From an uncultured Mycoplasmatota bacterium (GTDB taxonomy: Bacteria; Bacillota_I; Bacilli_A; RF39; UBA660), in contig CAOKBR010000006.1 of assembly GCA_948466735.1 (NCBI GenBank), positions 1-38,294 on the forward strand: a stretch of DNA of 38,294 bases. Direction: 5' to 3'. The notes under the pieces are model-generated. The model had not been told where the DNA came from. It did not search any database and saw nothing but the letters and a program-made list of their open reading frames with translations. Made by a program: the position numbers and the translations under genes. Positions within the stretch are counted from its first letter, which is position 1. The number at the start of each line of letters is the position of its first letter. This document shows, piece by piece, positions 17,703-21,373 of the stretch.

Positions 17703-17766
17703 ATCCCACCACTTTCTTCTTTATCATAACATAAACAAAGAAAATTGTACATGAGATTTTCTTATC

Positions 17767-18317: not shown

Positions 18318-18686
18318 TTATAAAACTTCAGTTTTCCACAATCCGTGTTTATTACAATAAGCATAAATAGTTGAGCCCTTCTCATAAGGAAATTCAGCTA
18401 TAGGACTATCATTTTTACTAAATTGAACCATAATTTCTTGATTTTTCGTTACTAAACCAATACATGAAATAAAATGTTCTTCTTCCATGACATGATTTAC
18501 TCGAACGATTAACTTATCATTATCAATTTGATAAGTAGGAAGATGTTTTTCTACTGCGCACTCTTCACTATTGGGAATAATGCTTTCCATCTTTTCGTTA
18601 CAACAAATAATACCACAATTATCACAGAAACAATCGTTTACTACTTTTATCACTGCATTACAATGTTTACACTTTTTAAATTGCAT
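18318..18686 (-). CDS. dfx: Superoxide reductase (desulfoferrodoxin, two-domain)
   Basis: Reduces superoxide to hydrogen peroxide without releasing oxygen, a typical anaerobe defence. The N-terminal desulforedoxin-like domain (1-35) has Cys6, Cys9, Cys28 and Cys29 for the Fe(Cys)4 centre. The C-terminal domain carries every expected ligand of the Fe(His)4Cys catalytic site: H48 in EKH, H65 and H71 in NHVMEEEHF, C111 and H114 in CNKHGLW. The lysine next to H48 (K47), which helps catalysis in the family, is kept. Extra cysteines at 19, 21 and 24 in the first domain are unusual. The start follows AAGGAGGAG and a likely -10 (TAAAAT). Its 122 residues are the normal two-domain size. Confidence 0.9.
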   Translation of the reverse strand: MQFKKCKHCNAVIKVVNDCFCDNCGIICCNEKMESIIPNSEECAVEKHLPTYQIDNDKLIVRVNHVMEEEHFISCIGLVTKNQEIMVQFSKNDSPIAEFPYEKGSTIYAYCNKHGLWKTEVL

Positions 18687-18773: not shown

Positions 18774-19520
18774 TTATTTAATTTTTTCATTTTCATTCAA
18801 GGGATAAAATGCACTATAAAACATCTCAGGATAGCTACAAATAAAGGTTAACTGTTTAAAAATATTCGCTTTTTCTTCTGTTTTATTGGTAATGAAATAT
18901 TGAAAAGCAATTGACATTTGATTTCCATCCATAACTGATATCATCATTTCTTTTCCCACATCAATTTGTTGTTTCATAATATCTTCATCTAACATCGTAG
19001 GAGGTAATACATAATAATCAACATCTAAATAAGTCTGATTATCAGGACTCATCGCTAAACCAATTTTAACATTTAAATGAGAGTTTTTTAACAGGTCAAC
19101 AATACGATAATTGACACTACTAAGATATAATTTCAATTTAGAATGATTGCTAATAATGTTTTTTAGTAAATCAACATATTCTTTATTTCTTTGACTAATA
19201 TAACTAGCAGTCTGCTCTGATAAAGGCGGATTAATTAAAGGAATAACATTTAATAAAATTTTTTTATCCCAATCACTAAAGCTAGTTAAGAATACTTCTA
19301 ATAAATAAATTCCTGAGTCCCCTAAATCACAATAGTTAGAACTTTGAATTGTCTCAGTCGATAAAGCCCCACCCATAATTGTTGGAACAAATATAATAAA
19401 TTTTTTATCCTTTGTTATGGTAATATCGATATTTAATCCATCAATAAACTCTTTTTTATGAATTAATTCTAAGAAATCAGCTCCGTTAATTAAATTACTT
19501 CGTCTAGCAATGATTGCCAT
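18774..19520 (-). CDS. Glycerophosphodiesterase-like protein, apparently degenerate
   Basis: The N-terminus resembles the GDPD TIM-barrel start: an IIA strand, a helix, then GLNIDITITKDKKFIIF, which parallels the family's G-x-x-x-E-x-D-x-x-x-T-K-D-G block. Later beta/alpha alternation (KLYLSSVNYRIVDLL; VKIGLAMSPD) fits the barrel. The catalytic His-Arg-Gly is replaced by RRS, the Glu of E-x-D by Asn, and the His-Asp after the third strand is absent, so diesterase activity is unlikely. I chose the ATG at 19520 because AGTGGA lies just before it; the upstream ATG at 19541 has no good ribosome binding site. It follows the acetyltransferase gene by 59 bp. The fold assignment is tentative. Confidence 0.5.
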   Translation of the reverse strand: MAIIARRSNLINGADFLELIHKKEFIDGLNIDITITKDKKFIIFVPTIMGGALSTETIQSSNYCDLGDSGIYLLEVFLTSFSDWDKKILLNVIPLINPPLSEQTASYISQRNKEYVDLLKNIISNHSKLKLYLSSVNYRIVDLLKNSHLNVKIGLAMSPDNQTYLDVDYYVLPPTMLDEDIMKQQIDVGKEMMISVMDGNQMSIAFQYFITNKTEEKANIFKQLTFICSYPEMFYSAFYPLNENEKIK

Positions 19521-19579
19521 TTTCCACTTCACCCAATTCATTTTATGTGTAATGAAAAGTGATCATTCACTAATTCTTT

Positions 19580-20128
19580 TTATTGTTTTATTAACAACTT
19601 TTGATAAGCCACTAAATCTTGTTTTTTTTCTTGATACATCTCTTTCGTGTATAAATAATGCTTTAAGTAATGTCTTTTTCCATTAATTTTCATAAAATCA
19701 TAACCCGCGAACCCACAAAAATTTATAAATTCATTACGTTCAAAAAGACGAACAGAATTTTTATTCTTTTCTTCTATCGTTACATATAGTCTACGAATAT
19801 ATGGATAACTAAACAAAGTATTTAATGTTTTTTTTATGATAAAGTCCGCTAAACCCTTATGACGATAATTTGGAGCAATAACAATGGTGAGTAACCAATC
19901 AGCTAAAAACTTTTCATCAACTTGACATAAACCTAAATACCCTGCTAATTGATGATTTTCTCCATCAACTATAGCAAAATTTAAATAAGGATGACAATCT
20001 TTTGTTAAAATAGCATCACCGAAACAAAGTTTCTTCTCATCCATAGCTTGAATTTCATTAAACAAATCAACATCATTATCTTTTAATAGTTTTAAATAAT
20101 AAATAGAGAAATTTAATGTATTTTTCAT
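19580..20128 (-). CDS. GNAT-family N-acetyltransferase
   Basis: Transfers an acetyl group from acetyl-CoA to an unknown amine. Motif A is visible as WLLTIVIAPNYRHKGLADFII, containing the R-x-x-G-x-A pyrophosphate loop. Strand-helix motif B follows as RRLYVTIEEKNKNSVRLFERNEF, with the family's Asn-x-x-x-x-x-x-Phe-Glu-Arg. Its 182 residues are a single domain resembling RimJ/RimL-type enzymes. The start overlaps the stop of the methyltransferase-like gene (ATGA, 20125-20128), so the two are translationally coupled. Substrate unknown; coupling to a catalytically altered methyltransferase fold is unusual. Confidence 0.85.
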   Translation of the reverse strand: MKNTLNFSIYYLKLLKDNDVDLFNEIQAMDEKKLCFGDAILTKDCHPYLNFAIVDGENHQLAGYLGLCQVDEKFLADWLLTIVIAPNYRHKGLADFIIKKTLNTLFSYPYIRRLYVTIEEKNKNSVRLFERNEFINFCGFAGYDFMKINGKRHYLKHYLYTKEMYQEKKQDLVAYQKLLIKQ

Positions 20129-21207
20129 AATAAGTAAAAATCATCTAATCGTAGAGCCATATAATAGCCAATTTCTTCTATCATAGGAATAGAAAAAGAA
20201 TTGCCAAAAAGTTGATATTTCTTTTTATCACTTATTCCACTTGGAAAGGAAAAATAATCTACACCATTGTTTAAAAAAGCATAATTTACAAAACCATGTA
20301 ATTTTCCCCATTCATTAGGCGTTAGAAAACGAATTCCTTCTTTATTAATTGCTGGTTTGTTACCGATAATCATTCCAATGTAAGATGGCAATGGTTGTCT
20401 TACTAAATTACGTTCTTTTCCATAAACTCCTATCGCGGTTAATGAAAATATAATTTGCCATTCACTTCCATTAATAATTAAAGGTTTCTGACTTTTTTCG
20501 CTTTTAATTTTTAGGGTATCTAACAAAGTTTGCGATAAATAATACTTAGGCTCTACTCCACCATCAAGTAAAGAATGAACGCTTGGATATATTACCTTAG
20601 ATCCTTTTTTAGGCAATGGTGGAAATTGATAATTTTTTTTAATCCCCCTTTTTTTAAACCCCATAATTATAACACAATTTTTATCCTGCGGCAAGCCAAA
20701 ATCACTAAAATTACGTACAATGTCTTTAGGTGAATAAACAACTTTGTCTCCTACTACATCAATTCCTACCATACGATAACTATATGAGTCTAAAGTTTTA
20801 ATAAGAGAGTTAAATACTCTTCCTCTATCATAATCTAAAATACTATCTGCACTAATAATCATAAACGCTACTGGTTTTACTTGCTTTAATACATTCAAAC
20901 ATTCCACACTAGAATTCGCTCCAGGACGATTCTTCTTAATAACAACTGAATCACAACGAAAGCAATAATTAGACGGCCATGTACTGACTAACACATCATA
21001 ATAATTAGTATTCAATTCTTTTTTCAATTGATTAGAGTGAATATCTTTATATACTTTTTCTTTATATAAGTGTTGATATACAATTTGTGCATAAGGATCA
21101 GGTTCCACTGCTAAAACACTTTTAAAACGTTTAGTCATCTCTAAGCCTTTTTTAACGCTTCCTATTCCTGCGTTTAAATCAATAAACTTATAAACCTTCC
21201 CTGTCAT
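20125..21207 (-). CDS. DNA cytosine-5 methyltransferase-like protein lacking the catalytic cysteine
   Basis: The fold of a C5-cytosine methyltransferase is clear. Motif I is FIDLNAGIG (8-16), motif II is VEPDPYA (34-40). Motif VIII is seen as GLPQDKNCVIIMGF, motif IX as FLTPNEWGKLHGF and motif X as LFGNSFSIP, in the right order over 360 residues. The reactive Pro-Cys-Gln of motif IV is Pro78-Ser79-Asn80. The Glu-Asn-Val of motif VI is replaced by ISAD (118-121), and the motif VIII arginines by Lys-Asn. AdoMet binding may persist, but methylation of cytosine is not expected. The frame is intact with a strong ribosome binding site (AAAGGGGTGA), so it is not a simple pseudogene. A regulatory or DNA-binding pseudoenzyme is a possibility. 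Confidence 0.8.
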   Translation of the reverse strand: MTGKVYKFIDLNAGIGSVKKGLEMTKRFKSVLAVEPDPYAQIVYQHLYKEKVYKDIHSNQLKKELNTNYYDVLVSTWPSNYCFRCDSVVIKKNRPGANSSVECLNVLKQVKPVAFMIISADSILDYDRGRVFNSLIKTLDSYSYRMVGIDVVGDKVVYSPKDIVRNFSDFGLPQDKNCVIIMGFKKRGIKKNYQFPPLPKKGSKVIYPSVHSLLDGGVEPKYYLSQTLLDTLKIKSEKSQKPLIINGSEWQIIFSLTAIGVYGKERNLVRQPLPSYIGMIIGNKPAINKEGIRFLTPNEWGKLHGFVNYAFLNNGVDYFSFPSGISDKKKYQLFGNSFSIPMIEEIGYYMALRLDDFYLL

Positions 21208-21284
21208 ATTTTCACCCCTTTTACCATGTTTTTTGTTTTCATCTGGTTAACATTCCATATTGTTATCATAGCAAGTTATTTATC

Positions 21285-21304
21285 ACAAATTTACTGGTAA
21301 AATT
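21285..21304. promoter_or_regulatory. Possible operator upstream of the methyltransferase-like gene
   Basis: The near-palindrome AATTTACTGGTAAAATT, centred near 21295, lies about 90 bp before the start at 21207. No convincing -35/-10 pair was found in this gap. The role is speculative. Confidence 0.25.
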
Positions 21305-21373
21305 AGGAAAATTAAAATATGAAGTGGTTATTTTATCAAATATGTTGATATTCTTATAAAATAAATGATTACT

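Follow-up and report, generated by a model that had tools for sequence, protein, structure and literature searches.

Restriction-modification (R-M) systems are constantly gained and lost, and their methyltransferases usually persist as orphan enzymes or become pseudogenes. Proteins that have a methyltransferase fold and no longer methylate have been described mainly in eukaryotes, and these include mtTFB, Gcd10p, and DNMT3L (PMC1282579). DNMT3L is the inactive DNMT3 paralogue of mammals; it has the cytosine-5 (C5) methyltransferase fold, it has lost catalysis, and it plays a non-catalytic role that involves binding to the active enzymes DNMT3A/B (PMC3716610, PMC1282579). The yeast protein sc-mtTFB, which is kin to the rRNA adenine dimethylases, is a Rossmann-fold methyltransferase that was recruited for a non-methylating role on nucleic acid (PMC1282579). 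M.SsoII is a C5-methyltransferase that also regulates transcription (PMC3978073). A limited literature search, which is not proof of novelty, found no precedent for a stand-alone bacterial C5-methyltransferase that is inactive.

In this report, a gene encoding a catalytically depleted C5-methyltransferase is described from one bacterial genome (G000) and from its sister species (G001). Like DNMT3L, the protein combines the C5 fold with the loss of catalysis, but the origins are separate, as the bacterial protein comes from an R-M system, and an active C5-methyltransferase that could serve as a partner of the DNMT3A/B kind is missing from the sister genome (PMC3716610, PMC1282579). The likeness to sc-mtTFB is limited by the fact that sc-mtTFB is eukaryotic and belongs to another methyltransferase family, and a regulatory role for the bacterial protein is one that we infer (PMC1282579). 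M.SsoII differs in being active and in using an added N-terminal region (residues 1-71) for its second role, whereas the protein described here has neither an extra domain nor catalysis (PMC3978073). The closest known systems are the methyltransferases of three HpaII-family R-M loci (L019, L020, and L051), which have the same fold and length, are 43-46% identical to the protein, and fall with it into one clade.

Fold and active site of the protein

The window, which is the whole stretch of DNA that was analysed (positions 1-38294; 38,294 nucleotides), contains an intact 360-codon open reading frame at 20125-21207 (minus strand), and the plus strand over the same interval is full of stops. The ribosome binding site AGGGGTG lies at 21213-21219 (minus strand). 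The gene was identified as a pseudo cytosine-5 methyltransferase of 360 amino acids from the reading frame, its PF00145 and dcm matches, a structural model, and the sister-species orthologue. The PF00145 match covers residues 6-348 (E=4.6e-28) and the score against the NCBIfam dcm model TIGR00675 is 105.6 bits, barely above the cut-off of 100.65. An AlphaFold2 model built from 39 aligned sequences has a mean pLDDT of 88 and a pTM of 0.89. The top structural match of this model is 3lx6_A (Z 31.0, 318 residues, rmsd 3.6), and M.HhaI (1fjx_A) is matched with a Z of 30.3 over 292 residues (rmsd 2.9); both are solved C5-methyltransferases. The C5-methyltransferase fold is complete in this protein and the chemistry is incomplete. 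An earlier note on this DNA had described an intact frame with a strong ribosome binding site and a coupled downstream gene, and a methyltransferase fold to be checked by structure prediction. All of these descriptions hold, and the strand, which the note did not give, is minus.

The catalytic motifs were compared with those of nine active relatives of one clade, which align without gaps around motif IV. Motif IV of the pseudo-methyltransferase reads W-P-S79-N80, with Pro78-Ser79-Asn80 (20968-20976, minus strand) replacing Pro-Cys-Gln, and all three residues are identical in the sister species. The length from Pro78 to Pro112 is exactly equal in the pseudo-methyltransferase and the active relatives, so that no gap is needed to place Ser79 opposite the nucleophile. 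A MAFFT alignment with a six-residue gap had put forward Cys85 as a shifted nucleophile; this is an artefact, as the loops do not differ in length and the sister species has Ser at this position. In motif VI, Ile-Ser-Ala-Asp (residues 118-121; 20845-20856, minus strand) replaces Glu-Asn-Val-Glu, and the sister species has VSVD. In motif VIII, Pro-Gln-Asp-Lys-Asn-Cys (residues 173-178; 20674-20691, minus strand) replaces PQ-K-R-A-R, and the Arg-x-Arg has become Lys176-Asn-Cys178 in both species. The earlier note had reported these same three changes (Pro-Ser-Asn for Pro-Cys-Gln, ISAD for the Glu-Asn-Val block, and the loss of the arginines after the PQ of motif VIII), and the alignment bears it out on each. 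Additionally, motif V (RGTLFF) is absent or replaced, and alignment and codon analysis place a deletion of the GFGY segment in the target-recognition region (residues 231-285; 20353-20517, minus strand), which is the most divergent stretch between the two species. The motif V and GFGY losses were not in the earlier note, nor were the motif I change and the gain of positive charge that are described below.

The loop at residues 79-98 has also been replaced, and 15 of its 20 residues are equal in both species. Residues that are invariant in the nine active relatives number 131; 65 are kept in both pseudo-methyltransferases and 58 are lost in both, with 48 of the 58 changed to an identical new residue in the two species. 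Losses shared on this scale, and mostly to the same residue, are not due to chance. Sequencing or assembly error is also excluded, as two separate metagenome-assembled genomes (MAGs) have the losses in common. The two known positions for the nucleophile are empty, namely that of the motif IV Cys used by DNA enzymes and that of the motif VI Cys used by RNA m5C enzymes (PMC3380923). Judged by its residues, the protein very probably transfers no methyl group.

Motifs IX and X (residues 293-340; 20188-20331, minus strand), with RxLTPxEWGKLxGF and GNS, are the best-preserved part of the protein. The cofactor-pocket residues G14 and G16 (the GxG of motif I), E35 (the acidic residue of motif II), D55 (the Asp of motif III), P78, and N336-S337 (the Asn-Ser of motif X) are retained. 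The structural glycines are likewise present, and motif IX is mostly intact; the roles of the pocket residues are taken from the AdoHcy-binding residues described for a related enzyme (PMC3380923). Motif I is altered in part (FAGIGG to NAGIGS), and residue 12, the position of the aromatic residue that stacks on the adenine, is Asn here and Tyr in the sister species. The earlier note had listed motifs I, II, IX, and X as kept. Most residues of the AdoMet pocket evidently remain, and AdoMet or AdoHcy is tentatively proposed as the ligand.

Origin, inheritance and selection

In the tree, the two pseudo-methyltransferases group with L019, L020, and L051 (support 99/92) inside the clade of HpaII-type methyltransferases. 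Each of these three has a HpaII-family nuclease directly 3' of the methyltransferase, as scored with PF09561 for L019 and L020 and by reading a similar open reading frame for L051. A YAF-NG-D-FSFP insertion between motifs IX and X and a C-terminal RLDDFY are common to the three active proteins and the pseudo-methyltransferase. In contrast, PCQ, ENV, RxR, RGTLFF, GFGY, and the adjoining nuclease are all kept by the active proteins, and none of these is found with the pseudo-methyltransferase. The protein is evidently a descendant of an HpaII-type R-M methyltransferase. No RE_HpaII nuclease (PF09561) was found in the G000 or G001 genome, and the statement of the earlier note that no nuclease is nearby can be extended, for the HpaII family, to the whole of this genome. 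We infer a loss of the nuclease within this lineage, as opposed to its being left behind at transfer. At the L019 locus of genome G149 (C38:34831-35881), the match to the HpaII-family nuclease is split in two, with an in-frame TAG in one of the parts, and the nuclease adjoins an intact methyltransferase; this is an R-M system that is losing its nuclease half.

The sample of the genus consists of two species, G000 and G001, both of which are incomplete MAGs (about 92-93%; G001 is 92% complete). The G001 orthologue is 81% identical, and it has the same place, the same neighbours, and the same catalytic losses. Pairwise codon maximum likelihood (ML) gave an omega of 0.029 (dN 0.108, dS 3.7) and rejected omega = 1 (2dlnL 294); as the estimate comes from one pair whose dS is close to saturation, there is uncertainty in the exact value of omega, which does not extend to the rejection of omega = 1. 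The same approach gave an omega of 0.025 for the active pair L020/L051 of the same clade and 0.04-0.06 for four neighbouring genes. By NG86 counting, the value for the pseudo-methyltransferase pair was 0.116 (dS 1.03) and those for the flanking genes were 0.04-0.25. Residues 201-285 in the recognition region are under looser constraint and are still constrained (omega 0.07). Neutral simulations that started from this gene ended at a mean identity of 9-38% with about 18-30 stops, compared with the observed 81% and none; at the shortest simulated distance (0.5 changes per site), identity did not exceed 45% and about 18 stops had arisen.

The branch leading to the two pseudo-methyltransferases has a stem of 1.33 changes per site and tips of 0.11 and 0.14, which is best read as a burst of change followed by new constraint. 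A recent transfer between the two species is excluded, as the dS of the gene resembles that of the flanking genes; together with the same synteny, this indicates that the gene was inherited with the chromosome. The inactivation evidently preceded the split of the species, and the inactive protein has been retained since then. Purifying selection since the catalytic loss has, by these estimates, been strong and comparable to that on active methyltransferases and neighbouring genes. Catalytic losses shared by both species and an omega well below 1 are what is expected of a pseudoenzyme under selection. The earlier note had proposed that a function other than methylation accounts for the retention of the protein, and had suggested examining homologues and dN/dS. 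Its proposal is supported by losses common to both species (Ser79, the lost ENV, and the lost RxR are all present in the sister orthologue) and by an omega of about 0.03 with omega = 1 rejected. It is very likely that the protein is a domesticated pseudoenzyme, derived from an HpaII-family R-M methyltransferase and fixed for a role that does not involve methyl transfer.

The nucleophile Cys is retained in 65 of 65 other full-length homologues that were inspected. One survey found P-C-Q or P-C-T in 39 of 39 other full-length PF00145 homologues, and a second found P-C-Q or, once, P-C-P in 26 of 26. There was no third carrier among 386 genomes of the family, 385 of the order, and 395 of the class, which are overlapping samples. 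Viral contigs, phages, and plasmids contained no further carrier and had distant C5-methyltransferases only, the phage and plasmid matches being at most 28% identical and not inspected one by one, and one further scan of genome contigs returned a 26% match only. On present evidence, the inactive form is confined to one genus.

Genomic surroundings and the 5' region

The downstream gene (19580-20128, minus strand) encodes a GNAT acetyltransferase (PF00583, E=3e-10), and its start overlaps the stop of the pseudo-methyltransferase gene in the sequence ATGA. The GNAT gene and the ATGA arrangement are the same in the sister species (L043:2295-2843), and no GNAT orthologue was found in 58 other relatives sampled.

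Comparison with the sister species reveals conserved blocks in the 5' region of the gene (21208-21373, minus strand), a probable promoter. This region is 75% identical between the two species, compared with 39-65% in six other gaps, and it is exceeded in identity by two gaps of 64 bp (95%) and 25 bp (88%). The 64-bp gap lies between two genes at 17703-17766 and has the highest identity of the gaps compared. An extended -10-like sequence, TGCTATGAT, was read by eye at 21265-21273. Two perfect inverted repeats that are conserved in the sister species sit in near-identical blocks of the 5' region. The first is TATCAA-N5-TTGATA (21334-21350), for which 0.7 chance matches are expected when one mismatch is allowed, and the other is TTTAC-CA-GTAAA (21290-21301), where the 13-mer TTTTACCAGTAAA has its single occurrence in the genome. 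An Rfam scan of the 5' region gave no match. The 5' region is likely a site of regulation, and the pseudo-methyltransferase itself possibly regulates there.

Several other features of the surroundings were recorded. A 255-aa protein (18774-19541) resembles, by eye, a glycerophosphodiesterase barrel without catalytic residues; it has no Pfam match, and a diverged paralogue is present on contig C11 of both species (omega 0.04). This protein, close to the pseudo-methyltransferase, may be another pseudoenzyme. A desulfoferrodoxin/superoxide reductase (PF01880) is encoded at 18318-18686 and, by eye, has kept its iron-binding His and has a rearranged N-terminal Cys cluster. In the window, GATC occurs 44 times compared with about 120 expected from trinucleotides, and CCGG occurs 2 times compared with 9.1 expected. 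The avoidance of GATC suggests restriction pressure at this sequence, present or past. The G000 genome has two other C5-methyltransferases, L001 (G000:C9) and L002 (G000:C13), in apparently intact R-M loci with Eco47II-family and HNH nucleases, and the sister genome contains no match to either methyltransferase.

Possible roles and rival explanations

The pseudo-methyltransferase has a net charge of +17 in this species and +16 in the sister species, compared with values between -1 and +3 for the three active proteins closest to it. It is the highest of 15 window proteins checked, the others ranging from -13 to +12, and the gain is located towards the N terminus, in the former loop, and in residues 186-230. 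The gain fits nucleic-acid binding, though charge by itself is weak evidence, as a more distant active relative (L021) has a net charge of +15. Nucleic-acid binding without methylation is the most likely of the roles considered and is put forward as a possibility.

A course of events can be proposed in which the protein descends from the methyltransferase of an HpaII-family type II R-M system whose nuclease would have been lost, or never carried along, in the ancestor of the genus. The nucleophile, the ENV glutamate, the motif VIII arginines, the mobile catalytic loop, and part of the recognition domain would then have been lost in a burst of change, and the remaining protein would have been fixed for a function without methyl transfer. 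The protein would bind nucleic acid in the old DNA cleft, which is now more basic, without its former target specificity, and AdoMet or AdoHcy, held in the largely retained cofactor pocket, would perhaps gate this binding. Together with the GNAT acetyltransferase, to which it is translationally coupled, the protein could serve as a regulator or scaffold. That the two proteins work together is doubtful, and the complete picture, a dedicated AdoMet-gated nucleic-acid-binding regulator that is found in one genus and never methylates, is less probable still.

The protein might also be an AdoMet- or AdoHcy-sensing partner that binds and tunes the coupled GNAT enzyme with no nucleic acid involved. 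The ATGA overlap and gene order preserved in both species, the absence of orthologues of both genes outside the genus among the relatives sampled, and the largely retained pocket are all consistent with such a partner, and inactive partners that control an enzyme are known, the trypanosome AdoMetDC prozyme being an example (PMC5201418). However, there is no direct sign of interaction, co-translation is common in a genome of about 1 Mb, and the gain of basic charge is left without explanation, so that this reading is rather unlikely. A cofactor in the manner of DNMT3L, binding or stimulating an active C5-methyltransferase of the cell, has its precedent in DNMT3L itself (PMC3716610, PMC1282579), and the two intact enzymes in the R-M loci of G000 could be its targets. 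In the 92% complete G001 genome the gene is equally retained and there is no other PF00145 protein, which makes helping an active enzyme very unlikely as the common role.

Two further explanations were considered. A methyltransferase still active by unusual chemistry would use Cys82 or Cys85 as its nucleophile, or would act on RNA or another substrate; Cys82 is three residues past the old nucleophile site and conserved in both species, and the cofactor pocket is mostly preserved. However, the sister species has Ser in place of Cys85, motif VI has no Cys of the kind that serves RNA m5C enzymes (PMC3380923), and Cys82 would have to work without the ENV Glu and both Arg. Moreover, the catalytic loop is modelled with a pLDDT of 40-46 compared with 72-83 in an active control model, a difference that is partly blurred by misaligned loop columns. 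Continued activity is highly improbable on these grounds. The earlier note had also considered a fixed inactive relic of an R-M system, and it was right about the R-M descent. A decaying relic, with a frame still open by chance, would account for the loss of all catalytic groups, and the stop codon in the G149 nuclease shows that such systems do decay, but the shared losses in two species, the omega of 0.03, and an identity with no stops far from the neutral expectation speak against it. Decay since the split of the two species is ruled out by the omega and the simulation, and the relic is the least credible of the explanations.

The reading that is preferred here, a pseudoenzyme fixed for a role without methylation, adds a third fate to those of R-M methyltransferases, in which all of the catalytic groups are lost in one burst and a constraint like that on active enzymes follows, and the sequence evidence for it is clear. 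The inactive protein and its 45%-identical active relative form a pair in which the non-catalytic abilities of the C5 fold can be separated from catalysis. If the AdoMet-gated regulator is real, it would be a bacterial counterpart, of separate origin, to the pseudo-methyltransferases of the DNMT3L and mtTFB types.
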